A stretch of DNA of 64,000 nucleotides from assembly GCA_030710605.1 (NCBI GenBank), contig CP092874.1:23325007-23389006 (forward strand). The letters are read 5' to 3'. The position numbers were made by a program, and so were the translations under genes. This DNA is from Cordylochernes scorpioides. Its lineage: Eukaryota; Arthropoda; Arachnida; Pseudoscorpiones; Chernetidae. The notes beneath the pieces are model-generated. The model was not told the origin of the DNA, ran no database searches, and saw only the letters and a program-made list of their open reading frames with translations. Of the stretch, positions 24,280 through 62,214 are shown piece by piece. Within the stretch, counting starts at the first letter, position 1. Every line of letters starts with the position of its first letter.

Positions 24280-24295
24280 TCCGTTCTTTTTCCTG
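24280..24295 (+). CDS. B3GALNT2: B3GALNT2-like gene, 3' end of exon F (misplaced half)
   Basis: The contig opens with 16 coding bases ending in a donor (TTTTCCTG then GTGAGT). Joined to the minus-strand exon that ends at 50713 (...CAG AAA TTG C), they read KLLRSFSW across the seam with no gap, matching KLLNFYRW in human B3GALNT2. The split TG codon is completed by G at the start of the next exon (32310) to give tryptophan. This exact fit is the main evidence that the contig is inverted. Confidence 0.8.
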
Positions 24296-24329
24296 GTGAG
24301 TCTATTGTTACTAATCCCAACATGTATCA

Positions 24330-24511
24330 CCAAGCTCTCTCCTCTCTGTTGTTTTTGTTTCTTATCCCCTTGTGTACAGATTACACAAATTCTGTGTCCA
24401 TGCTCCTCGAGCTGTCTTCTTCCATTTCAAAACATGTTGTTTTTGTTTCTTATCCTCCTGTGTACAGATTGCACAAATTCTGTGTCCATGCTCCTCGAGC
24501 TGTCTTCTTCC
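24330..24511 (-). repeat. 88-bp minisatellite, left part
   Basis: Two units of the array that continues at 26748. The units are the reverse complement of the 3' tail of the non-LTR element at 50903-54780. The array is split by the ORF1-only element. Confidence 0.9.
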
Positions 24512-26747
24512 AAAAGAAGAGAATTTTCACCTCTGGCGAGCGGAGGAATGTCGCTGGAAGCGACGAATTTGGTATGGGCTGGAAGCCCTCACCCGGCTGA
24601 ACATGAGCCTGCAAGGCTCGGCTCCGAAAGTGAAGCCGTTGCGGATTTATCCGCGGAAAACCATTTTCAAGGTGAAGATTCGAGAATGGATGACGCAAGC
24701 GCCAACTATGCAAATCTGCCAATCGACAGAAGCCATGCAAATTTTGCCGCGGCGTGTATCGCTGACGTCACGCCATCAACAAGCGGCGCCTTGGCCGCTG
24801 CGACGAACTGGGCCGAGCAAATGGAGGCTGCGGAATCAGGTGAAGATAGCTTCACCGTAGTTAAACACAAGCGAAGACGCAGGGAGTCGCCAAACCGCCC
24901 TGTCGAACAACGTTCCAGCGGTGTCGCGGCCTCCAGAAGGACCGGCGCAACCCCGCGAAGACGGCCAACAGCGGGAGGAGCTACGGTGGTCCAGGAAATC
25001 AGGGCTACTCGGGCCGACATCGCCGATGCCAGAGTACAACAGCGCTCTTCAACTGAGGATAACTGCGTCTTCGTGGAACACTGCCCAGACTTCGGATACA
25101 CCCATTACCTACAGGCGGTAGAAGAGCTGGTCGGAGGAGCCGGGAATGTGCTCCAAGTGATGAAAATGGACGGCCACATGCTGGTGGGCCTGTCCACCAA
25201 GGCCCTGGCGGAGCGACTTCTAAGGGACGGCCTTGAAATCGGGCATACCCACCTCAGGGCCTTCCCCTTTAAGAAAAGGGCGGAGAGGATCACCGTCGCA
25301 AACCTGCCCTTTTTCTTAGACGCCGCCGCCGTCATCGAGGCCCTCAAGCCCTTCGGTGACGTGTCTTCCATTGCCCCTATCTGGCTAAGAGCCGGAAGGT
25401 ATACCTTCACGGATGGCCGACGCGAGGTATTCATCCTCCTAAAGGAGGGCTTTACCCTGGAAAAGATCCCGACCCGCGTCGTCATCAGAAACAAAGGAAA
25501 CGTCCTCTCGGCCTTCATATCATATGGAGTCAAGTGCTCCAGATGCGGCCGGCAGGGTCACCGTAGGGCCAACTGCCCCATCAATCCTGGGAGAGCCTCC
25601 AACAACGGCCAGCCACAACCGGCACCCCTTCCACCTGGTGCTTCGTCCACCGTGTCCCGGCAGCAGAGCCGTCCGACACCAGCGGCCCCGGCCTTGCCTA
25701 TGGAGGAAACGCCTACTGCCCCTCCACCTGTGACCCCTGCTCCGCCCCTGCAGGCGCCTGAGGGTCCCGTGGGCCCTCGCCCGGCCGGTTCACAACATCC
25801 TGAGCCGCCTCCCGCTCGGCCGGACCTTGTTGCCCCGCTTGGCCCTCTGCCCGCCCAGAAGACCCTCGGACCTGCGGCCCCAACACCGGACGTGGAGATG
25901 TCCATCGTGGAGGAGACCTTTGCGTCCTCCACGTCATCGGCAAAGAACGCAACGAGAGTCGACCTCGATGCGTTCATCGAGGGGCACCCCAGCGTGTCCT
26001 TCGCTGAGACGGACGCCCTTGGTCTTGGGCGGAAGGAGGTCCTGGACCTCCTCTCCTCGAGGACCAAGGCGCAGAGGAAAGGACCCCTCCTGTCGCCTCC
26101 GCAGTGCGACGCCCTCGCCGGCCTGATCAGGCAAATATTGGATCTGAGGCCCGGAGCAGCCAGCAACCTCTACAAAGTCCTCGGGCAAGTCAAAGCTGAG
26201 CTGAGGACAACACCAACTTCAGTGTCTCCAACACCCCCACTGCCTGCGCCTCGGCCTGCCGAGCCAACACCGCCCGCTCCCCATGGGAAAATGACAACAC
26301 CGGCCCTGGCGACATCTCCACTGTTTCAAGTGGAGGAGGATCTGACGTCGAAGCGCTGGGATGAAGCAGCTGATATAATTTATAAATTGTGCAATGAACG
26401 CTACTCGGGGCCCTTGACTGATTTGGGAATCACAGAGGGTGACATCACGGATGCGGTCATATACCCCGAGGACAGGGAGCCTCTCCTCAGGACCTGCTCC
26501 ACCCAGAAGAAAAACCTTATCACCGAAATCAGTGCTGCAATTGAGCGCGCTCGGGACTCAGATCCCTTTGTACCTGAGGGCTTATACGCGCTCAGGAGGA
26601 TGTTACTCCCCTGACGGAGTCCAGACTACCCTTGGCAGGGGAACCTCCTGATGTGTATTTTTTAAATTGTAAATTTTTAACTGCCTAACTCTCCGGAGTG
26701 TAACAATTGACTGAGTTGTCAATAAATATGTTTTTAATTGTCAATTG
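24512..26747 (+). mobile_element. ORF1-only non-LTR retroelement, 2.2 kb
   Basis: Flanked by a 9-bp target duplication TCTTCTTCC (24503-24511 and 26748-26756) inside the 88-bp array. It has one ORF, about 130 bp of 3' UTR and the end TTTTTAATTGTCAATTG, and no reverse transcriptase. It would have to be moved by another element's RT, as HAL1-type elements are. The interior is far richer in G and C than the flanks, which fits a recent arrival. Confidence 0.75.
24548..26614 (+). CDS. gag-like ORF1 protein with CCHC zinc knuckle, 688 aa
   Basis: The start is taken as ATG 24548 (MSLEATNLVW), since the frame upstream is minisatellite. An RNA-binding, RRM-like region covers residues about 170-320 (NCVFVEHCPDFGYTHYLQAV ... 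ITVANLPFFL, ALKPFGDVSSI). A zinc knuckle CSRCGRQGHRRANC follows at about residue 328. A long proline-rich linker and a C-terminal helical part (RWDEAADIIYKLCNERYSG) complete it. The layout is that of non-LTR ORF1 nucleic-acid chaperones. The ORF is intact and uses G/C-rich codons unlike the host genes. Confidence 0.8.
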   Translation: MSLEATNLVWAGSPHPAEHEPARLGSESEAVADLSAENHFQGEDSRMDDASANYANLPIDRSHANFAAACIADVTPSTSGALAAATNWAEQMEAAESGEDSFTVVKHKRRRRESPNRPVEQRSSGVAASRRTGATPRRRPTAGGATVVQEIRATRADIADARVQQRSSTEDNCVFVEHCPDFGYTHYLQAVEELVGGAGNVLQVMKMDGHMLVGLSTKALAERLLRDGLEIGHTHLRAFPFKKRAERITVANLPFFLDAAAVIEALKPFGDVSSIAPIWLRAGRYTFTDGRREVFILLKEGFTLEKIPTRVVIRNKGNVLSAFISYGVKCSRCGRQGHRRANCPINPGRASNNGQPQPAPLPPGASSTVSRQQSRPTPAAPALPMEETPTAPPPVTPAPPLQAPEGPVGPRPAGSQHPEPPPARPDLVAPLGPLPAQKTLGPAAPTPDVEMSIVEETFASSTSSAKNATRVDLDAFIEGHPSVSFAETDALGLGRKEVLDLLSSRTKAQRKGPLLSPPQCDALAGLIRQILDLRPGAASNLYKVLGQVKAELRTTPTSVSPTPPLPAPRPAEPTPPAPHGKMTTPALATSPLFQVEEDLTSKRWDEAADIIYKLCNERYSGPLTDLGITEGDITDAVIYPEDREPLLRTCSTQKKNLITEISAAIERARDSDPFVPEGLYALRRMLLP

Positions 26748-28420
26748 TCTTCTTCCATTTCAAAACATGTTGTTGTTGTTTCTTATCCTCCTGTGTACAG
26801 ATTGCACAAATTCTGTGTCCATGCTCCTCGAGCTGTCTTCTTCCATTTCAAAGCATGTTGTTGTTGTTTCTTATCCCCTTGTGTACAGATTGCACAAATT
26901 CTGTGTCCATGCTCCTCGAGCTGTCTTCTTCCATTTCAAAACATGTTGTTGTTGTTTCTTATCCCCTTGTGTACAGATTGCACAAATTCTGTGTCCATGC
27001 TCCTCGAGCTGTCTTCTTCCATTTCAAAACATGTTGTTGTTGTTTCTTATCCCCTTGTGTACAGATTGCACAAATTCTGTGTCCATGCTCCTCGAGCTGT
27101 CTTCTTCCATTTCAAAGCATGTTGTTGTTGTTTCTTATCCCCTTGTGTACAGATTGCACAAATTCTGTGTCCATGCTCCTCGAGCTGTCTTCTTCCATTT
27201 CAAAACATGTTGTTGTTGTTTCTTATCCCCTTGTGTACAGATTGCACAAATTCTGTGTCCATGCTCCTCGAGCTGTCTTCTTCCATTTCAAAACATGTTG
27301 TTGTTGTTTCTTATCCCCTTGTGTACAGATTGCACAAATTCTGTGTCCATGCTCCTCGAGCTGTCTTCTTCCATTTCAAAACATGTTGTTGTTGTTTCTT
27401 ATCCCCTTGTGTACAGATTGCACAAATTCTGTGTCCATGCTCCTCGAGCTGTCTTCTTCCATATCAAAACATGTTGTTGTTGTTTCTTATCCCCTTGTGT
27501 ACAGATTGCACAAATTCTGTGTCCATGCTCCTCGAGCTGTCTTCTTCCATTTCAAAGCATGTTGTTGTTGTTTCTTATCCCCTTGTGTACAGATTGCACA
27601 AATTCTGTGTCCATGCTCCTCGAGCTGTCTTCTTCCATTTCAAAGCATGTTGTTGTTGTTTCTTATCCCCTTGTGTACAGATTGCACAAATTCTGTGTCC
27701 ATGCTCCTCGAGCTGTCTTCTTCCATTTCAAAACATGTTGTTGTTGTTTCTTATCCCCTTGTGTACAGATTGCACAAATTCTGTGTCCATGTTCCTAGAG
27801 CTGTCTTCTTCCATTTCAAAACATGTTGTTGTTTCTTATCCCCTTGTGTACAGATTGCACAAATTCTGTGTCCATGCTCCTCGAGCTGTCTTCTTCCATT
27901 TCAAAACATGTTGTTGTTGTTTCTTATCCCCTTGTGTACAGATTGCACAAATTCTGTGTCCATGCTCCTCGAGCTGTCTTCTTCCATTTCAAAACATGTT
28001 GTTGTTGTTTTTATCCCCTTGTGTACAGATTGCACAAATTCTGTGTCCATGTTCCTAGAGCTGTCTTCGTCCATTTCAAAACATGTTGTTGTTGTTTCTT
28101 ATCCCTTTGTGTACAGATTGCACAAATTCTATGTGTCCATGCTCCTCGAGCTGTCTTCTTCCATTTCAAAACATGTTGTTGTTGTTTCTTATCCCCTTGT
28201 GTACAGATTGCACAAATTCTGTGTCCATGCTCCTCGAGCTGTTTTCTTCCATTTCAAAACATGTTGTTGTTGTTTTTATCCCCTTGTGTACAGATTGCAC
28301 AAATTCTGTGTCCATGCTCCTCGAGCTGTCTTCTTCCATTTCAAAACATGTTGTTGTTGTTTCTTATCCCCTTGTGTACAGATTGCACAAATTCTGTGTC
28401 CATGCTCCTCAAGCTGTTTT
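26748..28420 (-). repeat. 88-bp minisatellite, about 19 copies
   Basis: CATGCTCCTCGAGCTGTCTT recurs every 88 bp from 26819 on, with a few shortened units (27820, 28000, 28260). The reverse complement of a unit reads AGCTCGAGGAGCATG, then ACAAGGGGATAAGAAACAAC and AACAAC, which is the 3' tail of the non-LTR element (54707-54780) plus a 20-bp linker. Because 88 is not a multiple of 3 and the unit lacks stops, all three frames are open for hundreds of codons; these are not genes. Confidence 0.95.
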
Positions 28421-28499
28421 ATGATAAGCAATGTAAACATGATAAACATGTAAAACTAGGCTGTGTGTCTTTTTACTTAATTCAAGATATCTACATAAT

Positions 28500-28760
28500 G
28501 AGAACATGTGTGTTTACTTATCCCAAGATATGTATATAACCAGACCATATCTTTGCATATCCCAAAATATATAACCAGAGGCTGTTTATTTTTTACTCAT
28601 CCCAAGATAGGTATATAACCAGACCATGTCTTTGCATATCCCAAAATATATATAACCAGAGGCTGTTTCTTTTTTACTTATCCCAAGATAGGTATATAAC
28701 CAGACCATGTCTTTGCATATCCCAAAATATATAACCAGAGGCCGTTTATTTTTTACTGTT
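28500..28760. repeat. 80-bp tandem repeat, about 3 copies
   Basis: TCCCAAGATAGGTATATAAC recurs at 28521, 28600 and 28681, each followed by CAGACCAT...TTTGCATATCCC. Related single pieces run to 29050. Confidence 0.85.
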
Positions 28761-28885
28761 GTTTCTTATCCCCTTGTGGAAAGATTTCACAAATTCCATG
28801 AGTTCATGCTCCTCGAGCTGTTTGATGATAAGCAGAGGCCTCTCCTAAAGGCGCCAAGCTACATTTTGGGCAAATAAGGTAGATT
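28755..28885 (-). mobile_element. non-LTR element 3' end, 5'-truncated copy
   Basis: Minus orientation copy of the tail of the element at 50903: the reverse complement reads CAAAATCTACC, CCAAAATGTAGCTTGG and AGCTCGAGGAGCATGAACTC, then the AAC tail, with an internal deletion. Confidence 0.8.
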
Positions 28886-29208
28886 TTGTTGTTATTTTCT
28901 TTTTTTTTTTTTTACCTATCTCAAGATATAAAAACAGGCTGGGAATTTTTTTACTATCCCAATGTATTTCACCAGGCTGTTCACTTTCTTATGCTAACAA
29001 ATATATTCAAACCATGTCTTTTTACCTATCCTTTGATATATAACCAGACCCTGTTTGATTATCTTGAAAAAATCTGGGCTTTTCTCTTCTAAACTTGGGT
29101 AACCCAGTCTTGCCTTTCTACTGAAAAATCCAAAGGTCACCTAGATAATGAATATCACGTTTCTCTAACACCATCACTGCCATCATTCTACTTGATCTTC
29201 ATTTTAGA

Positions 29209-30660
29209 ATGTGGATTATATCACTCATAGAGACAAGATTTAAGAGTGTTGTACCTTTTATCATGTATATCAGGATTCAGACAATAACTCTGAAAGATAT
29301 TACAGTGACCTTTATTGAAGACATACCAGATAACCAAGTGTATATACACTCATGGACAAAACTTAAGGAAGTTGTACCTTTTACCATATATATCGGGATT
29401 CAGACAATAACTCTGAAAGATATTACAGTGACCTTTATTGAAGATACACGAGATAACCAAGTGTATATACACTCATAGACAAAACTTAAAGAAGTTGTAC
29501 CTTTTAGCATGTATATCAGGATTCAGACAAGTGTTGTACCTTTTAGCATGTATATCAGGATTCAGACAAGTGTTGTACCTTTTAGCATGTATATCGGGAA
29601 TCAGACAATACCTCTGAAAGATATTACAGTGACCTTTATTGAAGACACACGAGATAACCAAGTGTATATACACTAATAGACAAAACTTAAAGAAGTTGTA
29701 CCTTTTATCATGTATATCAGGATTCAGACAATAATTCTGAAAGATATTACAGTGACCTTGATTGAAGACACACTAGATAACCAAGTGTATATACACTCAT
29801 AGACAAAACTTAAGGAAGTTGTACCTTTTACCATGTATATCGGGATTCAGACAATAACTCTGAAAGATATTACAGTGACCTTTATTGAAGACACACGAGA
29901 TAACCAAGTGTATATACACTCATGGACAAAACTTAAGGAAGTTGTACCTTTTATCATGTATATCAGGATTCAGACAATAACTCTGAAAAATATTACAGTA
30001 ATCTTTATTGAAGACATGCGAGATAACCAAGTGTGTATACACTCATAGACAAAACTTAAGGAAGTTGTACCTTTCAGCATGTATATCAGGATTCAGACAA
30101 TAACTCTGAAAGATATTACAGTGACCTTTATTGAAGACACACGAGATAACCAAGTGTGTATACACTCATAGACAAAACTCAAGGAAGTTGTACCTTTTAA
30201 CATGTATATCGGGATTCAGACAATAACTCTGAAATATATTACAGTGACCTTTATTGAAGATACACGAGATAACTAAGTGTATATACACTCATAGAGACAA
30301 AACTCAAGGAAGTTGTACCTTTTAGCATGTATATCGGGATTCAGACAATAACTCTGAAATATATTACAGTGACCTTTATTGAAGACACACGAGATAACCA
30401 AGTGTATATACACTCATAGACAAAACTTAAGGAAGTTGTACCTTTTATCATGTATATCGGGATTCAGACAATAACTCTGAAAGATATTACAGTAACCTTT
30501 ATTGAAGACACACGAGATAACCAAGAGTATATACACTCATGGACAAAACTTAAGGAAGTTGTACCTTTTAGCATGTATATCGGGATTGAGACAATAACTC
30601 TGAAAGATATTACAGTGACCTTTATTGAAGACACACGAGATAACCAAGTGTGAACTAAAT
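29209..30660. repeat. 123-bp tandem array made from a MITE, about 12 copies
   Basis: CACTCATRGACAAAACTTAA recurs at 29347, 29470 and on at 123 bp, each followed by GGAAGTTGTACCTTTTA and TGTATATCGGGATTCAGACA. A stand-alone MITE with the same left end and an inverted right end lies at 55590-55790, so the array is an amplified piece of it. Because 123 is a multiple of 3, the same short ORF recurs (MYIGIQTITLKDITVTFIED); it is not evidence of a gene. Confidence 0.9.
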
Positions 30661-30980
30661 TACCCCTCTCTCCTTAAAAATAAATAGAATACCGGCGACA
30701 TCAAAGACTTTCCACTTCCTTAAGTTTTATCTATGAGTAGCCAATATTATGTAATATACATTCATGGACAAAACTTAAGGAAGTTTTTACACCTTTTAGT
30801 ATTTATATTGAGTTTCAGTTAATAACTGCGAAAGATATTTGATTGACCTTAATTGGAGAAACACGAGATAACCAAGTGTGAACAAAATTGTCTCTGTCTT
30901 CTTAATAAAAATAGATGACCGGCGACAACAAAGACATTCCACTTCTTTAAGATTTGTGTATGAGTGTATTTGAATCATGA
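30650..30980. mobile_element. MITE copies at the right edge of the 123-bp array
   Basis: Two diverged units that include the opposite end (CTTTCCACTTCCTTAAGTTT then TATGAGT), as in the complete copy at 55590-55790. Confidence 0.7.
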
Positions 30981-31014
30981 TAAGGCACCATTTGGGGATT
31001 ATAGATTATAAACT

Positions 31015-31335
31015 TATTTGAATGTAATTCTACTGTCCTAAAAGCGTATGTCCATAGTTTTCTTAAATACCATTTCTAAGTTCTATCCTTCAGTGTAGCA
31101 TATAAAATCAGAATGATCCAATACCGTATTAGAGCTCTAAAGAAGCAGTCTGGTAGATTAAATTGGTGAAACCGCTGAGAAGGTTCACCACTGATGAGCC
31201 AAGCCCTTCAAATATTGTTTTCATCGCAGTAAGGACAGTAGAAGTTTGATTTATTTGGGAAAAGAAACATTCGTGTCTTAATGTTTTCATTTTTTATTAA
31301 TAGATGGTACGTTATTGTTTTGTATTAAATAAAGA
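31015..31335. repeat. single copy of the 373-bp family
   Basis: Matches the unit at 18470-18745 in permuted order. The core reads TTGGT-GAAA ... CTGATGA-GCCAA (31163-31202), so the C-G closing pair of the array units is a T-G wobble here. Confidence 0.8.
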
Positions 31336-31429
31336 AAAAATGCTAAGAAGGTTGGTAAAAAAGAGTTGGTGGAAGTCAAATTCCTTGATGAGCAACATTT
31401 TCCTAAATATTTTCTCTCTCAATAATTAA

Positions 31430-31925
31430 AGTAGTTTATTTCATTATAAAAGATAATAAGACACCATTTGGATTATAGATTATAAACACAAGGTAATAAG
31501 ACCAAATCCAAATAAATAAATAGATGTTATATATGATGATATAGGAGCAGGATATACGGCCCTGGATTGAGATTCCATACACCGAGTGGTCAGGCTGGCG
31601 CTATGTTTAGTAGGGTCGTTGTCCGTAGGTAACCCAGGGGGCACTGGTATGTCTTAATGTCTTCATTCATTATTACCTTGTGTTTATGATAAGGCACAAT
31701 TTGGATTATAGATTATAAACACAAGGTAATAAGACCAAATAAATAAATAGTGTGTGACGTTTCGGTAACAGCGTTGTTATCATCTTCAGACAAAAGTACT
31801 GAATGAGAGCATGCTGTGGTAAAATTTCCCATTCAGTACTTTTGTCTGAAGATGGTAAAAATGATGTTATCAAAATGTCACACACTATTTATTTATTTGT
31901 ATTTGGTCTTATTACCTTGTGTTTT
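31430..31925. mobile_element. Penelope-like family 2 ends, inverted pair
   Basis: 31680-31800 and 31805-31925 are the same terminal segment head to head: ATAAGACCAAAT, TAGTGTGTGACGTTTCGG, then the mirror image. Between about 31525 and 31650 lies a non-repetitive stretch that I could not assign. Further copies of this end: 32745-33020 (inverted pair), 33190-33320, 34970-35160, 36240-36390, 39118-39245, 50150-50410, 61540-61640, 63025-63110. Confidence 0.8.
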
Positions 31926-32215
31926 GGGGGGGTCGGTGGAAGGCTGGTTAAACCGTTTGGTTTTCGACCACTAAGACCCGGGTTCGATTCTCGCATTGGA
32001 CACTTTTTTTCTGTTTAAAAAAAAAAATGCTCCAATGTCCCCCGATTCTTGCAAAAGTCCAACCTCACCAGTGCGTGCAAGTAACCAAACGGGGCTCTGG
32101 CACATTTGTAAGTGCAAAGTCGAACTGCTTTTCACATGTGTAGACATGTTGTGCACTTACAGTAAAAGCAGTCGTTAACTTCTACCCACCATGATTATCA
32201 TGGCTTTGAGATAAG
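31925..32215 (+). mobile_element. tRNA-derived SINE
   Basis: The head GGTCGGTGGAAGGCTGGTTA carries an A-box-like part and GGGTTCGATTCTCGCATTGG a B box. A shared body follows (TGCTCCAATGTCCCC, CACATGTGTAGACATG, GATTATCATGGC). Other copies are at 35650-35885 (plus) and 61415-61540 (minus). Confidence 0.8.
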
Positions 32216-32309
32216 AAATAAGAAGACCTTGTGTTTATATTCGAATCTATCTTCTCTCTTGAGATCCATCTATCCGTATCAGTAATCCATTGAATGGTGT
32301 GGAGATCAG

Positions 32310-32435
32310 GCTAGAGAGACAACCTATCCAATACCACTTCCTACTCAAGACTGACGACGACGTGGCACTCAACCTTCACAGTATCCAAGAAGAGATTTCC
32401 ATTCTCAACTTCAACGATATGGTTATCTGGAGCAA
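32310..32435 (+). CDS. B3GALNT2: B3GALNT2-like gene, exon G with the DxD motif
   Basis: Acceptor GGAGATCAG, donor GTAAGA. The single leading G completes a tryptophan codon left by the exon ending at 24295. Translation includes QYHFLLKTDDDVALNLHS; the D-D-D is the metal and UDP-sugar binding motif of GT31 enzymes. B3GALNT2 is an ER enzyme that adds beta-1,3-GalNAc to GlcNAc on O-mannosyl glycans of alpha-dystroglycan. The length to the next conserved block equals that of the human protein. Confidence 0.85.
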
Positions 32436-32479
32436 GTAAGACTTCTTTTTTTTTCTTCAAATTTGCATAACTCCAGCAG

Positions 32480-32639
32480 GTTCCGGCGATGGTGGCAGGT
32501 CAACGACTGCAGTAAATGGGCAGACCTGGACTATGTCTCACTGACATATCCTCCGTTCCCCTGTGGTGGAGGCTACGTACTCTCAAGACCCCTGGTGTCC
32601 TGGCTAGCTGACAACAGCCATCTACTTCATCCCTATCAG
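32480..32639 (+). CDS. B3GALNT2: B3GALNT2-like gene, exon H
   Basis: The acceptor is a NAGNAG site (CAGCAG, 32474-32479). The second AG gives WSK-FRRWWQVNDCSKW, the same length as WGNFRLNWAVDRTGKW in human; the first would give N-R in place of K. The exon continues with SLTYPPFPCGGGYVLS, the GT31 P-Y/F-x-C-G-G-G-Y-V-L block, and ends HPYQ before a GTCTGT donor, phase 0. Confidence 0.88.
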
Positions 32640-33594
32640 GTCTGTACTGTCCACAGAAACATCAAATATTATTCATTATTACATGTTGACGGATTCCAAC
32701 AAATTACAAAAAAAAAAAGTATAAGGTGCTGCAACTCTTTTTTATTAATTCACAAGGTAATAAGACCAAATCCAAATAAATAAATAATGTGTGACGTTTC
32801 GGTAACAGCGTTGTTACCATCTTCAGTCAAAAGTACTGAATGATTATAAACACAAGGTAATAAGACTATCATTTTATTATAGATTATAATGAGATTCAGT
32901 AATTTTGTCTGAAGATGATAACAACGCTGTTACCGAAAAGTCACACACTATTTATTTATTTGGATTTGGTCTTAATACCTTGTGTTTATAATCTATAATC
33001 CAAATTGTGCCTTATCAATCAAATATTATTCATTATCACAGGTTGGGGTGATTTCAACAAATTACAAAAAAAGGTATAAGACCCCACAACTTTTTTAAAA
33101 TTAATTATATAAAGAAGCTTTCGGACAAGCTCTTCCTCATCAAACTAAAACAACTGTTGTAAAATCAGCTTGCACCATAATATTTTAATACAAATACAAC
33201 ATTTCTGTAACAGCGTTGTTACCATCTTCATACAAAAGTACTGAAGATGATAACAACGCTGTTACCGAAACGTCACACACTATTTATTTATTTGGATTTG
33301 GTCTTATTACCTTGTGTTTAATACAAATTGGTATAAGATGCTGAAACTCTTTTTTTATTGTATATAGAAGCTTCCAGGCAAGCTCTTCCTCAGTTTATTT
33401 AGTTTGCTGAGGAAGAGCTTCCCCGGCTCGAGAAGCATGAACTCATGGAATTCGTGTAATCTTTACACAAGGGGATAAGAAACAACAACAACAACAACAG
33501 AGCTTGCCCGAAAGCTTCCTTATACAATTCTTTATACAATGAAAAAGAGTTGCAGCATCTTATACCTTTTTGTAATATAATATTATGGTGCAAC

Positions 33595-34130
33595 CTGATT
33601 GTGCAACTAAAAGTTGTTGATGGCTTGCTCCACACACACACATCTGTCAGAATATATATCAACTATATAATATATCACTGATTTTTTAGAATTATTCCAG
33701 AATTTATTGTGAAAGATGGCATAAGCCATCAGCAACTTTTAGTTGAACGATCGAAGGATTCCTTTTTTTTTTCTTAATTTATCCTCCTGAGTTCAGTACA
33801 AGTTTACTTTTGTACTATTTTTTTTTTTTCATAAAATCTTAAGAATAAAAAAATAATCACACATTCGATACTATTAAAAAATTATGCAAAAAGACATCTC
33901 CTTATCGTGCAACTGAAAGTTGATGATGGTTTGCGCCATCTATCAGAATAAATATCAACTATTCTCATTGATTTTTAATGTGTCCATGTCTGTGGTTAGC
34001 TTTTCTTGATTACTCAAGAATGTGTAAATGGCCAATTCTGGAATAATTAAAAATCAACGAGAATAGTTGATATTTATTCCAATAGATGGCAAAATCAATC
34101 AGCAACTTTCAGTTGCACGATAAGGAGATG
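33595..34130. mobile_element. two related foldback MITEs
   Basis: 33898-34125 has ends TCTCCTTATCGTGCAACTG and CAGTTGCACGATAAGGAGA, exact inverted repeats, and the arms pair for about 100 bp. 33603-33757 is a diverged relative (GTGCAACTAAAAGTTG...CAACTTTTAGTTGAACG). Both lie in an intron of the B3GALNT2-like gene. Confidence 0.85.
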
Positions 34131-34255
34131 CCTTTTTCATAATTTATGCACCTTATCCCAGTACAATATTACATTTGTACTATTTTTTCACTATTAAAAA
34201 ATGTTTCTCTTTCGTTCAATATTTTCATTAAGAGAGTATTGTTTGTATGTTACAG

Positions 34256-34312
34256 GGTGAAGATGTGTCCATGGGAATATGGCTGGCAGCCCTAAGACCC
34301 CGTATGATAGAG
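34256..34312 (+). CDS. B3GALNT2: B3GALNT2-like gene, exon I
   Basis: 57 bp, acceptor TTACAG, donor GTATGG, phase 0 at both sides. It reads GEDVSMGIWLAALRPRMIE, against GEDVSMGIWMAAIGPKRYQ in human: nine identical residues in a row. This is the GT31 E-D-V motif with the catalytic acidic residues. Confidence 0.92.
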
Positions 34313-35472
34313 GTATGGTCCAATATGGGGCAGGGTTATTTGTGTGACTTAGGGCAACCATAGAGAAAATACAGGATTTAAACCTAATAAGGTACAGTTT
34401 GGATTATAGATAAGAAATATTGGGTAACAAAACCACATCCATATTTATAATCAAAAGATAACAAGACAAAATATCATGAGAAGACACCTCTTTTCAAAGG
34501 ACAGTTTTCATCACCAAAATTACCATTTTTACTAGTTAGAGGACATCTCTCTCTAAAGGACACTTTTACTCTGCATTTAGATGTCTGTCGCCAAGAAACA
34601 GTCAGTATTTGCCGGTGTCTAAAGGATTAAGAAGGAGGAACAGACAGCCATCTTTTTTTTTTCTTATCTGTTCGGATTTTATCTATTAGCAACACCTGGC
34701 ATCAGGATTCTGGAATTTTCTTCTGTTATCAACACCTGATGTAATCTGTCTGGAATTTTTCCCTGTTATCAGCAACAGACGTCAACAAACCATCAATATC
34801 TTGTGTTCTATCATGGCAGCCTGTAATTTTATCTCTCTCTGTTTTCATTTGAAAGAGATTGTTCTCGTAATCCCCCTTTAGACAACACCATGCTCAACAG
34901 CAGTTTTGTTCCTCGAAAGTGTCCTTTCCAGTGAGGTTCTTCTTTGCCAGCAACTCAGATAGAAACACATAGTAATAAGAGACCAAATCCAAATAAATAG
35001 TGTGTGATGTTTAGGTTAAACGTCACTCACTATTTATTTCTTTGGATTTGATAAGGCACAATTTGGATTATAGATTATAAACACTAGGTAATAAGACCAA
35101 ATCCAAATAAATGCATTATTACCTTGTGTTTCTAATCTATAATCCAAATTGTGTGGCAATGTACATTAATGCTTCCTCTCAAACAAACATCTTGAAATTT
35201 GAACAAAAAAAAAATCCAAAGAAAACAAATTCTCATTCAGAAAACTTCAATTAGGATTTTTATCAATCCTAATTGAAGTTTTCTGAATGAGAATTTTTTT
35301 TCTTTGGATTTTTTTTTTTGTCCAAATTTCAAGATGTTTGTTTGAGAGGAAGCATTGATGCACATTCCCATAGAGCATCATGATTATCATGGCCTCTACT
35401 ACACACAGAATGTTTACAGAGATGTATCCTGTCCTTACTGTAATGTAACCAGATGTTTTGTATTTGTTCCAG

Positions 35473-35610
35473 GATGACAGATGGAACTGTGAAGATTCTT
35501 GTCTTCCTTCCAGCTTCAACTGGCCTCAACTTTCTCCAACTCAGCTGAGGGAATCCTGGGAAACCTTTAGGAACTGTGGCAGTATTTGTCATTGTGGACA
35601 AGTTACATGA
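35473..35610 (+). CDS. B3GALNT2: B3GALNT2-like gene, last exon J
   Basis: Acceptor TTGTTCCAG; 45 codons and TGA at 35608-35610. The pattern CEDSC ... FNWPQLSPTQL ... CGSICHC parallels the human C-terminus (CEKTC, SPWELTEL, CGDPCRC), including the cysteine spacing. It closes the gene at the usual point. Confidence 0.88.
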   Translation, partial: DDRWNCEDSCLPSSFNWPQLSPTQLRESWETFRNCGSICHCGQVT

Positions 35611-35649
35611 AAACTTGATCCTTTTATTCTTCCTCACAACAAGGATTAG

Positions 35650-40375: not shown

Positions 40376-43300
40376 AGAAGTTATTTATATATAATAATAA
40401 TTTAGTAGATATGTTTGTACTGTTCAGTAGATTTTGCTGGTTCTATGTAATTCACTCTTGAAATTCTAGGTATAGTTGACGCCTTAGTCTTCCCCAAGAA
40501 TGCAGCGGAGCCCACAGGATCCAAACAACCACCATTCATCCATTCAACCACTGATCTTACACACACTTTATTTTCCAATCACAATTTATATACACTCAAT
40601 TTATACACATGCCCAGATATTGTTGGTCAAATAATATATAGATTAATTAAATAATAATAAAAATTATCAAAGAGAGAGAAAAGCAAAAGAACTAAAATTC
40701 CCCCCCCCCCCCCCCCCCGCAATATAGTAAACCTCTATGAGAGGACACTCTTGCTAAAGGGGATACCTCTCTCTACAAAAAACTATTTTCGTCGCCAAAA
40801 ACATGTACACATAGCCTCTTTTATGACTTCTACATTGAATCTAAATCCATAAAGATTAAAGAACAAAAATATCTATATATAAAAACAAAAAGGTATTTAC
40901 ATACTGTTGGCTTCACGATTGTAAATATTCAGAGAGTGAGGAAGGAATGACCAACCCATCAACAACCACTTTAAACAACATGTTTGTATATATTTCCTTT
41001 ATATAGTAGTCCCTTTTTCTTTCCTTACCTTTTCTGTGCTAACATTTTGCTTTATACTGTATTAAATAAATAACTTTTCCTTGATTGAGTCTTCAACATA
41101 TTTATACATAAACCACTATTGAGTTCTGCATCCATACCATGGAAAATAAAAAGTCCTCTCTCCTCCCTTCAAAATAGACACCATCTATAGTCATCAATTT
41201 TGAAAAGAAAGGTAGACTCAATATCCTCCCAGAAAAAGTTCCATTTATATTTTGACCATAGTTATATGATGATGCCCAAAAGAAAGCTTCAAAGTGCCAT
41301 GATGGCAAGCAGGGTCAGTTTGATCATATGTGTGAATCCCAAGAATAGCTAAGAGGAGAAGACAAACCAATCAGGAAGGAAGATGTCCATCTGGCCCGCA
41401 GTCAAATCGTGCACCCTCATGTTGACTGCTGTTAGATGATTCTTCATGTATATGATTTGCCTGTTCTCCATAATACAAGAAGGTAAATAAAGAAGAGTCG
41501 TGAACAGAGATCCTTACTGATCCTGTGTGCTTATTTGGGCCATCCTTGACACAGCAGCGATGCATAGAGTAAATCTAGCCCCCCCCCTACCAGCTAAACA
41601 CTGTTAGAAAAAAGAAAAATAAATCAATGATCTTAAAATACTTTTAGACTGACAACACTGTAATATAAAACCAGAACAAAGGAGTGTTTTTTTGTTTACA
41701 TAATTAGTAATTGTAATGTAAATTGTAAAATGTTTTTTTTCTCTCTCTCTTTGAAAATAATAAATTTAAAATACTCTTTCTTAAAAGAGGTAAAATCGCC
41801 TAATTCTTTAAACCATTTCAGCTGTAAGTAAACTTGTTTTTTGTTGTTTCATGTCTGAACCATAAAAGATTCCCAACAAACACCTCATTGGCAAGTTCAG
41901 AAGATTTCATTTGATACCTTATAGATCTCATGAAATCAAAGCATGCCCACTAGTCAAAACCATGGTTTCCAGGTGGGTGCTTCTCAAATTGCCAAAGCAA
42001 GTGTTGTAAGATTTATAAATGACCAGAGATGGGAGAGGTGGCCTCTATTTTAATTCCCTCAAAATACTCCCAGCAAAATTTCTAAAAAATAAAAGAGTAT
42101 ATATACACTCATGTTCCTTGATTTAAAACTTGAGCCAGGAAACAGGAGATTTCTGCTTTAAAATAATTATCTTCTTAATCGTAATTAAATATCACATAAG
42201 TTTCGAATATACATAAAGTCAATTTATTTGTTTGACAGAGCATTTAGAGCTGACAGGGGGGGTTAGATGGGAATTTTAACATTGTTAACTGATAATTAAT
42301 AAAATGTAGCAGATTAAAAAATAAACTATAGTGTAAGAGTAAAATACCCCTTGTCATGAGGAATTTATAGTGAGGTTGTTTTAGAAACTCCGCTTTGTTT
42401 TGTCCCTGCTTCCGCTTTTCAAGGAATCCCAAAATAAAACTACCGCTTACTTGACCTAGTGTTGCTGAACTCGCCCCAGAAGATATCATCACGCTTCTCT
42501 GTGAAATAGAAATATTAAAAAAATATATATATATAAGTATATTGGAGAAAAATTCACCAATAAAAAATGAATATGGATAAAAAGTATTAAAAATGAAAAA
42601 TATTTAAAAAACAAAATGAACGTGGAGGAACCTGGACATCTTGAGGTTGAATTGGTAAAGGTTTAGGGCTCGAGAGGTGGAGCTGGTTTTCGGCCTGTAG
42701 ATGGTGATTTTACCAGTCACCATGATTATGTGGCTTGTTCATAAAGATAGGTATGCTGGAGTCTGGCTTGGTGGAATCAAGTCAGCCACCATCTGCGCCT
42801 CACAATCACCAGAGAATTGCAACTTAAATGGGGTTTTGGGTGAATCGTGGCATACTATAATACAAAGGTCACGAGGTGACCTAACAGTGATTTGATAATT
42901 AGCAAATGGCAGCTTTTATGTTCACAATTTAATAGGAATATATTCAAGTACGCAAACTATATTTAAAAATTATTAAGTGAAGGATAAAGATGCTAAGAAA
43001 AAATGTGTCTTATCTGTTGTTTTAATTTCAAACTGTTAAAAAAAGTGGGCATTAGTGGCCACCGAAGCGCAAACCTCAAATTCATAAGCTGCTTAGCAAG
43101 TCCTAGTTGTTACTTTTTCTACCCTTCCCCAAAGTTTTGCCAAACTCACCCCAAAGCTATAAAAAAATAACTCCTTTCTATTCTCTCTCAGTGAAAAAAT
43201 ATTAAAATAAAAATTAATATATATACATATATATATCGAATCGTGGCATATACTATTGTTTACAGGTCATGAGGTGTCTATGCAAGACCAATAACCTTTA

Positions 43301-43860
43301 ATGGGCCATAAAGATTTCTTCCTGTGTATTACAATAAAAAGACAAATAAAATTATTTATTACCGGCTATTTAAAAATTCATATAATAATATTGCAACATC
43401 AATATTATTAGGTTATTTGCGAAAGCGGATAGTTGGTGTCCTGTGCTTCAGGAATCTCTCCTGGGTTACAAATATATCTCTCTGAATGAAAAAAAAAAAA
43501 GAGAAAAAAAAAAGGCTGTTAACAGACATTTTTCTTATAAATGGATTTGGTAAGAAATTTATTATGAGAACAATATATAAATTCCCTTTAAAAACAATAT
43601 TTACTTTTTTTTTTTTTCAAAATCATTATTTTTCTGCAATTCGGAAGTTCCATTTAAAGTCTGGGCTCACTATGTCATGTGACCAAAATGGTGAGTTTGA
43701 AAACAAAAAGTTTTATCCAACTTCAGATTCCAATAAAAATGATTAAAAACCTTCAAACCTTAAAAAAACTTCAACTTTAACCAAAATTTCATCTCAGATT
43801 TTATAATTCATGAAAATTTTTCAATATTTTACGTTTTGTAATACTTATATCTGTCATTTA
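40376..43860. other. intergenic; poly-C tract and unassigned minus-strand exon candidates
   Basis: 40680-40720 holds an 18-base C run. Minus-strand open stretches at 41371-41580 and 41102-41308 are not recognisable. 43485-43418 (minus) follows a long pyrimidine tract and CAG and reads RDIFVTQERFLKHRTPTIRF then RK and a stop, a possible last exon. 42300-42505 has an acceptor-led open stretch (MMISSGASSATLGQ). I assign no product to any of them. Confidence 0.3.
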
Positions 43861-43864
43861 AATA

Positions 43865-43926
43865 GTCTGCGCACAATCCGTCATCTTCCGACTAGAAACC
43901 TTTGGGCACCATTTTGAAGCAAAAGG
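43865..43926 (+). promoter_or_regulatory. candidate 5' UTR exon of the ankyrin gene
   Basis: Short GC-richer stretch ending GAAGCAAAAG before GTATACAT (donor). A possible acceptor, ACATAAATAG, ends at 43981, 27 bases before the ATG. This would give the gene one short 5' UTR intron. Confidence 0.35.
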
Positions 43927-44007
43927 TATACATTTATTTATATTTTCTTTATTTTTATTGTTTATTTTGTTAACATAAATAGAAATATTTGATTTTACAT
44001 ATCAAAA

Positions 44008-46173
44008 ATGGAAGATTATTGGGATATGCTACCCTTTAGTTCTAATCGGGTTTTTCCGATTGTCTATTTTGAACCTTATTACGATACTACATTAATGCAA
44101 GCTGCTAGTGTGGGAGATGTAAAAAGAGTCAAATTATTACTCTACAGTGAACCACCATGGTTAAAAAACATTATTGGATGGAATGCTTTAATGTATGCTA
44201 GCCATAAGGGTCATTTAGAGGTTGCAAAAATCTTAATAAAAGCAAACTCCAGTCTAAATACAATGGATTTTTCAGGGAATACTCCCTTGATTGCTGCAAT
44301 TGATGGTGGACATTTAGAAATGGTAAATTTACTGATGAAAGTGGGTGCTGAATATAACACTGTAAATAGAGAATGTACTGATTGTTTATTTGGAAAATAT
44401 CTATTCAAAAATAAAGCCTGTGACAAATATTTATATGGAAATACCATTTTCAATACCAGATATCCAAGAGGTATTGCTCCACCTAAAGAAATAATAAGTA
44501 AAAAAGAAAAAGATGATGATGAAGAATATTATGATGATAAGAAGTTTGACCAAGCTTCATCTAATGAACAAGTTGAGAATTTTATAACAAATTGTTATAG
44601 ATGGAGTCCGTTAAGTTTAGCTGTGGGTGATGGTCAAATAGATATTGTGAAATTATTACTAATTGCTGGTGCAGATGTTGATGTTGAAAATTCATCAAAT
44701 GAAACACCATTACTTATTGCTGCCTATGAAGGTTGGGTTGATTCAGTTAAGATATTAATTGAGGTAGGTGCAAATATTAATCAAAAAAATGTATTTGGTA
44801 TATCACCCTTAGCACTTGCAGTAAGCCAGGGTTATATTGAAGTGGTGAACGATCTTATTGAAAGAAATGCTGATATCAATATTGAAACTGAAGAAAAACT
44901 AACACCACTTATTATTGCATCTTTCAACGGTTTCATTGATCTGGTTAAATTTTTGTTATATTCTGGTGCCCATATTGAAGCTAAAGATAAAGAAGGTAAT
45001 ACATCGTTGATGCACGCAGTTGCATCCTGTCATTTTGATATTTCAACCTTCTTGATTGAAAATGGTGCGAATGTTAACACTAAGAATATTATGGATCAAA
45101 ATGCTCTAATGTATGCAGCTAAGAATGGCAATTTTATAATCACATCTCAACTTATCCAAGCTGGTTCTCATATAAATGAAATTGACAAGAATGGAGATAC
45201 AGCGTTGGCACATGCTACTTCAGGAGGACATCTGAATGTAATGAAATTGTTGCTGGAACATGGTGCTGATGTCAATTTAACAGGTTCCCGTATTCCTCCA
45301 CTCCTCATTGCCATCAATATCAACCATATCCCAAGTGTAGATCTCCTTATGAAATTCAGGGCCAATGTGAATGCCCAGCTGTTTACCATTGAATCTATTC
45401 TTATTCTGGCTGCTCGGATTAACATGGATATCTTTAAGATGCTCCTGAGGGCAGGGGTACGTCTGAAGAAGACAGATTTGTTCGGCTATCACCCTATCCA
45501 TCAGTTGATTGCTGAGAGAAGGATGGAGGCCTTGGAGCTAATGCGTAGATCTGGGGTGGACATGAACCTTGAGATCCATCGCCAATATACACCCCTGTAT
45601 TTGGCCGTTCAGAAGGGGGATCTGGAAATGGTGGAGTGTCTGGTCCGTTTGGGAGCCATGATCGACTTCAAGAAGAAGAATGAAACCCCCCTCAAACTAG
45701 CTATTGCTCTGAATCACCAAAATATCTCCCAATACCTTATAAGGAAACTGGTCTACTGCATTCCCAGCATGACGAAGCCATTCTACGTCAGCAATGTTGG
45801 CCATGTGTCCAACTACTGGGACCAATGCGTACACGAGGTGAGAGGTATGCAAACCTGTATTCTAGGTTTCAGTAGCGTGACCGTCCGGCAATGCATGCTG
45901 GAGATTGACATTGACAAGCTGGCTGGTTACCTCTCCAACCAAACTTTTGACCGACCCGTAGAAGAGTTATACAAACCTTACTTCCCAATCTACCTTAATG
46001 ATATTGCGGAGACCTTCAACATCGGACTGAAGAGGAGGGCCTACAGAGAAAAGGCTCAGCTCGTTCTGAGACATAGCGATGCTGACGTCCTACCGGAAGA
46101 CATCACCACACTAATCACATTCCTCATTTCCAACACAGATCTGGACAACCTTATTCAGAGCGCCTTAATCTGA
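44008..46173 (+). CDS. ankyrin-repeat protein, 721 aa, uninterrupted
   Basis: Start ATG 44008 follows an A-rich leader (TATCAAAAATGG). About 14 ankyrin repeats cover residues 30-590, for example GWNALMYASHKGHLEVAKIL, GNTPLIAAIDGGHLEMVNLL and NETPLLIAAYEGWVDSVKIL. An acidic, lysine-rich insert (KKEKDDDEEYYDDKKFD) separates repeats 3 and 4 at residues about 155-195. The last 130 residues (from VYCIPSMTKPFYVSN) contain no repeat that I recognise; they end TLITFLISNTDLDNLIQSAL. The first 430 codons are A/T-rich, while the rest use many G/C-ending codons, a sharp change near 45290. Ankyrin arrays bind proteins; the specific role is unknown. Confidence 0.9.
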   Translation: MEDYWDMLPFSSNRVFPIVYFEPYYDTTLMQAASVGDVKRVKLLLYSEPPWLKNIIGWNALMYASHKGHLEVAKILIKANSSLNTMDFSGNTPLIAAIDGGHLEMVNLLMKVGAEYNTVNRECTDCLFGKYLFKNKACDKYLYGNTIFNTRYPRGIAPPKEIISKKEKDDDEEYYDDKKFDQASSNEQVENFITNCYRWSPLSLAVGDGQIDIVKLLLIAGADVDVENSSNETPLLIAAYEGWVDSVKILIEVGANINQKNVFGISPLALAVSQGYIEVVNDLIERNADINIETEEKLTPLIIASFNGFIDLVKFLLYSGAHIEAKDKEGNTSLMHAVASCHFDISTFLIENGANVNTKNIMDQNALMYAAKNGNFIITSQLIQAGSHINEIDKNGDTALAHATSGGHLNVMKLLLEHGADVNLTGSRIPPLLIAININHIPSVDLLMKFRANVNAQLFTIESILILAARINMDIFKMLLRAGVRLKKTDLFGYHPIHQLIAERRMEALELMRRSGVDMNLEIHRQYTPLYLAVQKGDLEMVECLVRLGAMIDFKKKNETPLKLAIALNHQNISQYLIRKLVYCIPSMTKPFYVSNVGHVSNYWDQCVHEVRGMQTCILGFSSVTVRQCMLEIDIDKLAGYLSNQTFDRPVEELYKPYFPIYLNDIAETFNIGLKRRAYREKAQLVLRHSDADVLPEDITTLITFLISNTDLDNLIQSALI

Positions 46174-46248
46174 AGTTCTTGTTGTTGGTTTTTTCGTCAT
46201 TTCAAAGGTAGGTTAACTTGTTCATCTTTAAAATAGTAATTCTCTCTT

Positions 46249-46435
46249 CTGTTTTTGCATATGCTCTAGGTTGGATTTTCTGTTTTTGCATATTCTCTGG
46301 GTTGGATTTTCTGTTTTTGCATATGCTCTAGGTTTGATTTTCTGTTTTTGCATATGCTCTAGGTTGAATTTTCTGTTTTTGCATATGCTCTAGGTTGGAT
46401 TTTCTATTTTTGCATATGCTCTAGGTTGGAGTCTG
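46249..46435. repeat. 31-bp tandem repeat, 6 copies, behind the ankyrin gene
   Basis: CTGTTTTTGCATATGCTCTA plus GGTTGGATTTT, repeated six times with small changes, 75 bp after the stop codon. Confidence 0.9.
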
Positions 46436-46514
46436 ATTTAAGACTCATCAAAAAGTTTTTATTCTCCATAAAAGTTAAAATTTGGCCAAAAGCTTTCAAC
46501 CTTGAAAAAAGCAT

Positions 46515-46720
46515 CCCTCATTCAGAGCGCCTTCAACTGAAGCAGTAAGCTAGTTTTCATTTTGTTTAAGTCATTTCAAAATCAGATTGTTTGTCTTTAA
46601 AAGGCTCTTTTGTTTTTACATATTGCTTATGCTCTAGGTTGGATTTTGATTTAATCTAAGAGACTCATCAAGCGCTCAAAAAAAAAGTTTTTATTCTCCC
46701 ATTTAAAAGTATATTCAACT
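46515..46720. repeat. partial duplication of the ankyrin gene 3' end
   Basis: CATTCAGAGCGCCTTCAACTG at 46520 repeats TTATTCAGAGCGCCTTAATCTG at 46150, and the next 150 bp follows 46180-46450 with one unit of the 31-bp repeat. The terminal exon and the start of the 3' UTR were duplicated in tandem. Confidence 0.75.
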
Positions 46721-46739
46721 TTGCTAAAAGCTTTTCACC

Positions 46740-47600
46740 TTTGAAAAACAGGGTGTTAGAAGTGGGGGTCTCAGAAACATCTGATAATACTTTTTTTTTT
46801 TTTTGAGGTTTGATGAGTCTTACAATCTGGAATTTGCATATGCTGTTTCAATTGGGAACACATCTTTTCTACAAAAATCTTTTTTTTTTTTCATTTGAAA
46901 CATTACCACACATACCTCCTCTCTATAGGGAACCCCTATTGGAACTGAACCTGTGGTTCATAGTCATGGTTCATTATAGTCATTGCTGTTTTTTTTTTTA
47001 CTGTTTTATGTAAATAGTCTTTTTTTTTTTTGTGTGGAGAGGAAAAAGACTAAAATCCATGTGCCAATTTCTTTTTTTCTTTCCACTTTTTTTTTTTCCA
47101 AAGGTGACATCAAAAATTTAAATGCATTTAAAGTTTATAATTCCATTATTAATGAAATTATTTTGTATTTTTTGTATTTATATTTATTATTTATATTTAT
47201 ATTGTATGTGTATATTACAATTGTATGTATTGTAGAGAGGAAATATGTAAATATTGTTAACCCACTGACACATCGTTTAAATTGAGCAAAAATTATTGAA
47301 AGAAAACATCCTTTTTTTCATTGACATCCTATTTCATTTTTTTTATTGTATCAATATTGTCCATAATTGTGAAAAGAACAACCCAAAAGAGGTAACTGAA
47401 TTTATCTAATAACTATTTTTTTCAGGAGGGTTCAATTTTTTTAAAAGAGCATTATAATTTTGATAAATACTTATCAATTGCCTTGTTTATATGACACCTT
47501 GTTTAAAGGTCATTTAAAGAAAGAGTTTACTGAAAAAGAGCTTGCCCGAAAGCTACTTTAAACAATTAATAAAAAAAGTTGCGGAGTCTTATACCATTTT
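46740..47600. other. AT-rich DNA with T tracts; Penelope-like end at 47530-47610
   Basis: Long T runs produce chance ORFs. 47530-47610 (GAGCTTGCCCGAAAGC ... GCGGAGTCTTATACC) matches the end also seen at 33100-33170 and 33350-33420. An accidental Tigger-like end is at 46930-46980. Confidence 0.5.
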
Positions 47601-47611
47601 GTAATATCCAT

Positions 47612-47975
47612 CACTTCTTCTTTCTTATCTCCACTCAATCATATTAGGGTATCAAGTTGTGACCCTTAATGGTGTCTGTTTGACAACCATCATGACTGGG
47701 TGAAGTAGAATGCATCTGCCTTTGTCATTAAGACTGGTAGCACTACTCAGTGGCAGGCCACTGACTTAGCTCCAAAAGAAATGGCCGCCTCTGACATGAG
47801 GAACAGATGCCATGTGCAGCTGCTCCTAACATGGAGTACAAACGCGGCTCATCCTGTATCCCTAGATTAGGAGCCCTTACAGGGTACTATCAGCCGGGCC
47901 AGCTGAACCCAGGTTTTTTAGCGAGCTTGTTACAACTCCCCCTCCTCTGGAGGCGGAGTTGTAACATCCATCTAG
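47612..47975 (-). mobile_element. RIME-like short element A, second copy
   Basis: Minus orientation; the tail TTCTTATCTCCACTCAATCA at 47620 and the head CCTGGGTTCAGCTGGCCCGG (reverse complement) near 47905. Confidence 0.85.
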
Positions 47976-49054
47976 AATTGAGAAATAAAAGGTCCTCTCT
48001 TCAGTCAAAATAGATGCCAAAACTATACACCAGTACCATCTCAGTATTCTCTAGAAGATTAAGATAAAAGTATCATGGGTATATACAATATAACAACCTC
48101 CATGAGTGGACATTCGCTCTAGAGGACACCTCTCCTTAAAGAACACTTTGGCTCTGCAATTAGGTGTTGTCCTTTACAGGGAGGTAGTTCTACTGTATAT
48201 ATGTACTTTTCTAAGAAGAGATAAAGAACTAACGGCAGCGAGTTTCTTTATTAAAGATTAGGCTTAGCAGGAGCTTTTGGACAATAACCTCCTTCAACTG
48301 TAATACAAATATTCGAATTTTGACTCATATTTTTGTGTCAGATATTTTTAATACAATAAAGAAAATATAAAGTCTGTTCTTATATCCATGTTAAAAATTT
48401 GAAGAATAAAAAAACCCCAAAAAGAAAAGATGCCAAACAAAGTCAGTCTATTTTAACACCAAGATTTATAAATACAACATTGAAGGATGACAAATATTTT
48501 TTTAATGAAAAAAAAATAAAAATTTGGAAGTTTGTGAACTCCTGTGTTGTTTATACAACAACACAAAGCTTTTATTAAGACCCCATTGGTCTTACACAGA
48601 TTCTCCAGAGTGTAGACAATATTGATCAGGATGAGTGGAGTTTTATATGTACAATATTACATAAAATGTAGTAAAAAGTATTGTCTAACTTTTATGTTAT
48701 TAAAGTAAGTAAGAAGGACGTAACCAATTTAACTTTACATATTATTTATTATTAATAGCAATTATACAAAACAAATCTTGGTATATGTTTTACATTAGAA
48801 CAACAAAAACAATAAATATTATATACATACAAGTTCTTTTTCAAACACAAGCTCATCTATAGCCATTGTTACTCTGTGTAATATTCCAACACAAGAAGAA
48901 AAAGAAAAAAAGAAGAAAAGTTTTGAAGATTAATTATCATTATTATAATGGAAAGACTAATTTATTAGATCCGCTTTTCTTCATAACTCTTCTGAAGAAA
49001 TTAAATTCAGATAAAGCAATATTGTCTATCAGACTTGATAGAAACTTCTGTTGT

Positions 49055-49415
49055 TTATTATCCTTATCTTTCTTATCTCTACTCAATCATATTAGGGTAT
49101 CAAGCTTTGACAACCATCATGACTGGGTGAAGTAGAATGCTTCTTCCTTTGTCATTAAGACTGGGAGCACTACTCAGTGGCAGGCCGCCTTAGCTCAGAA
49201 AGAAATGGCCGCCTCTGACATGAGGAACAGACGCCATGTACAGCCGCTCCTAACATGAAGTGCAAACGCTGCTCATCCTGTATCCCTGGATTAGGAGCCC
49301 TTACAGGGTACTATCAGCCGGGCCAGCTGAACCCAGGTTTTTTAGTGAGCTTGTTACTGCTCCCCCTCCTCCTTTTTCATCCGGGCTTGGGACCGGCAAA
49401 GGCAGAGTTGTGATT
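49055..49415 (-). mobile_element. RIME-like short element A, third copy
   Basis: Minus orientation, head extended to CTGCCTTTGCCGGTCCCAAG (reverse complement, about 49385-49404), so it shows more of the 5' end than the other copies. Confidence 0.85.
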
Positions 49416-49710
49416 TAGTCCACTGAACCAAAGTAAAGAAGTGAGCAAAACACTGTTGTTTGGAGCCAGATTTTAAAAATACAAATGAAAACCATAGAAA
49501 TGTTTTAGCTCATTGAAATTTTTCAAAAATATCCAAAGTTAAATATGAAATATAACCAAAGAAAAGATAAAAATATTGTTTTCATTTTTTTTTAATTTTA
49601 ACAAATTTGTTGCACATACCTATTTTAAAAGCTTTTATATATCTCTTTATATATATATACTTATTTTGTGGCAATTTTTATCCTATTTTAAAATATTTTT
49701 TATTATATAC

Positions 49711-49859
49711 AGTTAAACCTGTCTATAGCGCCAGATTTTAAATATGTAGTACAATGCGATTTACATTAAAAGTGACCTGTCTATAGCACCCCCTCTCTAT
49801 AGCACCCTATTTTGGTGAGTCCCAACCAAGAGGGGGCATTATATACAGGTTTAACTGTA
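49711..49859. mobile_element. pogo-like MITE, 149 bp
   Basis: ACAGTTAAACCTGTCTATAG at the left and its reverse complement (TATACAGGTTTAACTGT) at the right. Another copy, inverted inside, is 59070-59250. No ORF. Confidence 0.85.
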
Positions 49860-50581
49860 TATATAATTATTATTTATTTTATTTTATGGCAATTTTTATC
49901 CTATTTTAAAATATTTTTTATTATACCTCATATTTGTTTACATCTCATTATTTTTTTTAGAAGAAAAAAACATAATTTTGTGGCAGTTTTGATCCTATTT
50001 TAAATGATTTCTTATCTCTTTTTATACAATATTACATTTATATTTTTTAAATTATTATTTTGTGGAAATTTATATAACCTATTTTTAAAAGCTTTTTATT
50101 ATATCTTTGTTTAGAACTTATATTATTTTTTAAAACAAGAAAATAAGACGATAAGACACAATTTGGATTATAGATTATAAACACAAGGTAATAAGACCAA
50201 ATCTAAATAAATAAATAGTGTGTGTCGTTTCGGGTAACAGCGTTATTACCATCTTCAGACAAAAGTACTAATGATGGAAACAACGCTGTTACAGAAACAG
50301 CACACACTATTTATATATTTGGATTTGGTCTTGTTATCTTGTGTTTAAGAAAATAAGACTTAATCCAAAAAATTCTTGTATCTATAATCCATAATCCAAA
50401 TTGTGCTTTATCGTTATTTATTTAAAAAAAAAACATTATATCAATTTCCATTTTATTTTAAAAAGCTTTTTCCATCTCTCTTGTTTATATATTGTTATTA
50501 TCATTTTTATTTATTAAAAAAATTATTATTTTTTGTGGAAATTTGCATTTGTTATTATTATTCATTGATAAAGAAAGAGAA

Positions 50582-50612
50582 TAACCAGTCAAAACTCTCG
50601 TTTAATTTGATC
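50582..50612. mobile_element. Tigger-type terminal repeat cut by the gap
   Basis: CCAGTCAAAACTCTCGTTTA then ATTTGATC resembles the Tigger left end at 9228 (CAGTCGAACTTCTTTAATTC). In reverse complement it supplies the terminus missing from the element that ends at 24179. Confidence 0.55.
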
Positions 50613-55134: not shown

Positions 55135-55139
55135 CTATA

Positions 55140-62153: not shown

Positions 62154-62214
62154 CTGCGCCGCAGATAATTTACTTGAACCCTTGTTGCCACACAGACTGC
62201 AAGTAAGTAGTTCT

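Follow-up and report, generated by a model that had tools for sequence, protein, structure and literature searches.

A B3GALNT2-type gene divided between two strands at assembly gaps in Cordylochernes scorpioides points to a probable misoriented scaffold piece

The locus and its two gaps

The window considered here is the whole 64-kb stretch of DNA that was analysed, taken from an assembly of the pseudoscorpion Cordylochernes scorpioides. It contains two runs of N, each of exactly 100 N, as the original prediction had stated, and these delimit three pieces that we term L, M and R:

1-24179: piece L
24180..24279, no strand: gap L/M, 100 N, a length set by convention
24280-50612, no strand: piece M (26,333 bases), whose orientation with respect to its neighbours is most likely reversed, as judged from the exon seam with R
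50613..50712, no strand: gap M/R, 100 N
50713-64000: piece R, running past the end of the window

Both ends of M hence adjoin gaps of conventional size, a trait expected of a misoriented assembly piece. The GC fractions of the inner stretches measured are 0.360 for L, 0.363 for M and 0.357 for R, and we counted this near-equality in favour of an artefact in which M is misoriented. Because the edge of M at 50609-50612 reads GATC, a turned M would have this site as its first four bases. Neither GATC nor GANTC occurs within 8 bases of the other seam, and the site at the edge of M is possibly there by chance.

Several other elements occupy the window. An uninterrupted open frame on the plus strand at 44008-46173 encodes 721 aa of ankyrin repeats (Ank_2, 2.8e-82), and a 373-bp unit is repeated in 2.6 copies with 99% identity at 18369-19349, reflecting either a recent tandem duplication or an assembly duplication. 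A LINE open frame of 847 aa with endonuclease and reverse transcriptase lies on the plus strand at 50932-53475, just beyond the split exon described below. Among the best 120 of its 304 matches, the first 59 are all C. scorpioides proteins with 74-99% identity, and the first from another species is a spider protein with 47%, in agreement with the origin of the window in this pseudoscorpion. Several of these C. scorpioides matches carry other domains, which suggests that the annotation of this species includes gene models fused with LINE sequence. A tRNA scan of the window returned none.

A B3GALNT2-type gene with exons on both strands

The gene of primary interest comprises the following exons, in the order in which they would be read:

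62055..62156, minus strand: probable upstream B3GALNT2 exon, weak, borders approximate; tblastn E 0.12 (P0150), 0.15 (P0160), 0.049 (P0142)
57461..57577, minus strand: probable upstream B3GALNT2 exon, weak, borders approximate; tblastn E 0.10 (P0002), 0.71 (P0154)
50713..50903, minus strand: first part of the split exon, with homolog matches, ending within a codon at the gap edge
24280..24295, plus strand: last 16 bases of the split exon, TCCGTTCTTTTTCCTG, then the donor GTGAGT
32310..32435, plus strand: exon with LLKTDDD (DxD-type motif), with homolog matches
32480..32639, plus strand: exon FRRWWQVNDCSKW...HPYQ, with homolog matches
34256..34312, plus strand: exon GEDVSMGIWLAALRPRMIE, with homolog matches
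35473..35610, plus strand: last exon, stop TGA at 35608-35610

The two weak upstream exons, which the original prediction did not include, are on the minus strand of R and follow the expected order; the one at 57461..57577 has an in-frame stop near its 5' end, outside the matched core at 57461-57562. The 5' border of the exon at 50713..50903 was set by an assumed acceptor, TGTAG. Each of the four later exons is preceded by AG, and all but the last of them are followed by GT.

When the 225 residues of the joined exons are compared with Pfam, they match Galactosyl_T (PF01762) at 2.7e-19 with 70.2 bits, the cutoff being 23. The exons in the window are also matched by a query that we take to be human B3GALNT2; five further matches of this query outside the gene (E <5) included none that were colinear, and they were treated as chance. 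When 496 candidate proteins of 247-786 residues were scored on the joined part, 59 passed a threshold of E 0.001, the highest identity being 47%. Many of the 59 bear the name UDP-GalNAc:beta-1,3-N-acetylgalactosaminyltransferase 2, among them proteins of the scorpion Centruroides vittatus and of the tick Ixodes scapularis. A search of shorter candidates (138-439 aa) yielded 13 of 158, at identities of up to 45%. A near-identical copy was absent from both searches, so in these length ranges we saw no intact copy from the same species that could be the real gene. Among solved structures, 6 distinct chains match at E <=0.1, and the alignments of the two best-matching ones, B3GALT6 (9sp7) and B3GALT5 (8zwp), extend over the seam between M and R.

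By the names of its top matches, the gene is of the B3GALNT2 type, being nearest to B3GALNT2 among the beta-1,3-glycosyltransferases. It has in common with known B3GALNT2 the Galactosyl_T domain and the names of many matches, but it differs in that the window firmly places the C-terminal half alone, with an identity of at most 47%.

The two halves meet within a codon

The original prediction held that the minus-strand exon stops at 50713 and that the rest of the gene starts on the plus strand at 24280, and the sequence at both edges bears this out. The minus strand of R, read up to 50713, gives ...CCT CAG AAA TTG C, at which point the exon ends inside a codon. Turning one piece yields the join CAG AAA TTG CTC CGT TCT TTT TCC TG/G, which reads in frame as QKL/LRSFSW with no base missing and restores the conserved KLL...W block. 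An open frame of 68 residues, which begins at the ATG of this exon and runs through ...LPQKLLRSFSW to a stop, spans the join. The codon split as TG/G is completed at 32310, and the frame remains open through the four later exons to the TGA ending at 35610. The claims that the join gives KLLRSFSW without loss of a base, and that the phase agrees from 32310 to the stop, have accordingly held up, the former against the in-frame seam and the profile controls given below, the latter against the open frame and its AG/GT borders.

With a profile of 9 homologs, the minus-strand half scores 35.7 bits, the plus-strand half 214.8 and the joined protein 267.7, the two halves matching adjoining, non-overlapping parts of the profile. 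As a control for the seam, the true 16 bases were substituted by each of 4900 other open 16-mers taken from the window, all of them lying before a GT. Of these, 8 reached at least the score of the true seam (7 above and 1 tie) under the 9-homolog profile. Under the larger profile, built from 55 homologs, the score of the true seam is 295.4 bits and the controls have a mean of 285.7, a standard deviation of 3.0 and a maximum of 297.8, with 13 of the 4900 reaching 295.4. That random 16-mers can outscore the true seam was counted against the explanation favoured below.

Nine alternative seam lengths of 1 to 28 nt, the longer of which were made by adding alanine codons, scored 278.0-287.0 bits, that is, 8-17 below the true seam. 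In an alignment of 56 homologs, both motifs flanking the seam are present in 51; the joined protein has them 28 residues apart, a spacing shared by 6 of the 51, and 37 have a spacing of 27 residues. The scores of the alternative lengths, taken together with this spacing, indicate that the seam is most likely without a missing codon. When the three other contig ends were scanned to within 100 nt of the edge, a single candidate, at the 24280 end, had an open run reaching a GT in phase. A comparison of the exon edge with a phage collection gave no match and is uninformative for the seam.

At the level of sequence, these comparisons establish that 24280 and 50713 are neighbouring bases of a single exon on the same strand. 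The exon is continuous across the M/R seam only after a piece has been turned, which is a further trait of a misoriented piece.

Repeats and the seam between L and M

The other seam lies among repeats, of which two reach or approach the edges:

23736..24179, no strand: dispersed repeat reaching the edge of L, 85% identical to 9272-9719 on the opposite strand
24347..28417 (24347-24512 and 26746-28417), no strand: 88-bp tandem repeat beginning 67 bases inside M, with an interruption of about 2.2 kb

The two copies of the dispersed repeat are identical over the last 50-odd bases at the edge of L, and the copy at 9272-9719 continues into a hairpin past the shared part. The interruption of the 88-bp array (24513-26745) forms part of an open frame of 772 aa at 24296-26614 with a weak zinc-knuckle match below the Pfam cutoff, and it looks like the insertion of a mobile element.

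No copy of a repeat in the window spans any of the five joins tried. When 9272-9719 was extended past its edge in an anchored comparison, the turned M gave p 0.14 over 45 bases and 0.05 over 60, and local alignment with the turned M gave p 0.033 (40 bases), 0.11 (80), 0.19 (150) and 0.52 (300); these values are uncorrected, and correcting for the number of tests would leave none of them significant. At 80 bases, M as given ties with the turned M in local alignment. In a hairpin test the turned M and R have equal energy at 30 bases, and R is lower at 45. We infer that L probably adjoins the other end of M.

Origin of the arrangement

The reading that we favour, and consider highly probable on the sequence in hand, is an assembly artefact: the true order would be L, the reverse complement of M, then R, a contig having been cut in silico and M put back reversed. 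A single contig would originally have continued through the B3GALNT2 exon; scaffolding software would have cut it at two points, the zero-base seam being an indirect sign of this; the middle piece of 26 kb would have been too short for its orientation to be set reliably from proximity-ligation contacts; and it would have been reinserted in reverse, flanked by conventional 100-N gaps. The position of the zero-base seam inside an exon suggests that software cut one contig here, and not that two contigs were assembled independently, since independent contigs would seldom meet within an exon without overlap or loss, whereas the parts of a software-cut contig would do so. The tandem repeat 67 bases from one edge and the dispersed repeat at the edge of L were likewise counted for a software break, such breaks being reported for Dovetail as enriched near repeats (PMC5545040).

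The methods literature describes the relevant behaviours. For Dovetail these are 100 Ns per join, automatic splitting of sequences, and joins and breaks near repeats (PMC5545040); for SALSA2, the splitting of suspect contigs three ways, into a left, a junction and a right piece, together with a difficulty in orienting short contigs (PMC6719893); and for 3D-DNA, the misorientation of 4.3% of contigs on test data (PMC7672694). For C. scorpioides itself, a 2021 paper (PMC8136511) reports an Illumina draft, QEEW00000000.1, and states that an assembly from long reads and proximity ligation was forthcoming; our literature search found no paper on a chromosome-scale assembly of this species.

Concerning the question of which piece was turned, the exon seam fixes the relation of M to R and leaves L out, so R could be the turned piece instead. 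In that version R would be misplaced, alone or along with the order of the pieces, and the true order would have the reverse complement of R first and M, in its given orientation, after it. R extends past the end of the window, so its size is not fixed here, and the tests of the L/M seam are non-significant, both of which leave room for this alternative. Against this, a misplaced R would need a changed order in addition to a changed orientation, and the pieces usually misoriented are short ones, according to two papers on scaffolders (PMC6719893, PMC7672694). We regard it as unlikely. Parsimony, and with it the weak, non-significant L/M match, thus favours M over R as the piece that was turned. 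Of the proposal of a misoriented contig, then, the part that concerns the restored conserved exon at the M/R seam stands, whereas the choice of M over R rests on these latter considerations.

A real inversion with one breakpoint in the exon, fixed or heterozygous, is less probable still. If it were heterozygous, contigs would end where the haplotypes branch, that is, at both breakpoints, and the ancestral order would be recoverable without loss. The original prediction hence went too far in arguing that both breakpoints of a real inversion would not lie at gaps. However, such an inversion would destroy a conserved gene by breaking an exon, and the zero-base seam would need a breakpoint without loss or gain. 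A comparison between the two breakpoints, taking 3 kb to each side, found no inverted match at E <=0.01, and an inversion mediated by repeats was rejected on this ground; the same comparison gave three short direct matches. The specific version, in which the pseudoscorpion carries a segregating heterozygous inversion with a breakpoint in B3GALNT2 and both arrangements are mixed in the assembly, appears slightly more remote again.

That two unrelated partial copies, or two genes, face each other by chance is scarcely credible, since nothing beyond the strand layout as given favours it and the two halves, which adjoin without overlap on the profile, meet within a codon at the gap edges.

Conclusions

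If the arrangement is an artefact, its effect would be local: within this stretch, gene models and calls of synteny would be wrong, and a loss of B3GALNT2 or a 26 kb inversion inferred from the assembly as given would be false. On a small scale, the locus also illustrates that the orientation of a scaffold piece can be worked out, with no recourse to reads, from an exon that a gap interrupts.

The case looks like a scaffolding error of an ordinary and already known kind, a product of computation and not of biology. The misorientation of short contigs in Hi-C scaffolds, known from 3D-DNA, SALSA2 and similar tools (PMC7672694, PMC6719893), likewise involves a short reversed piece, gaps of fixed length and a broken gene model. 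The present locus differs from that usual form in its zero-base seam within an exon, which suggests that the piece was cut out by software and does not end at a natural contig end.
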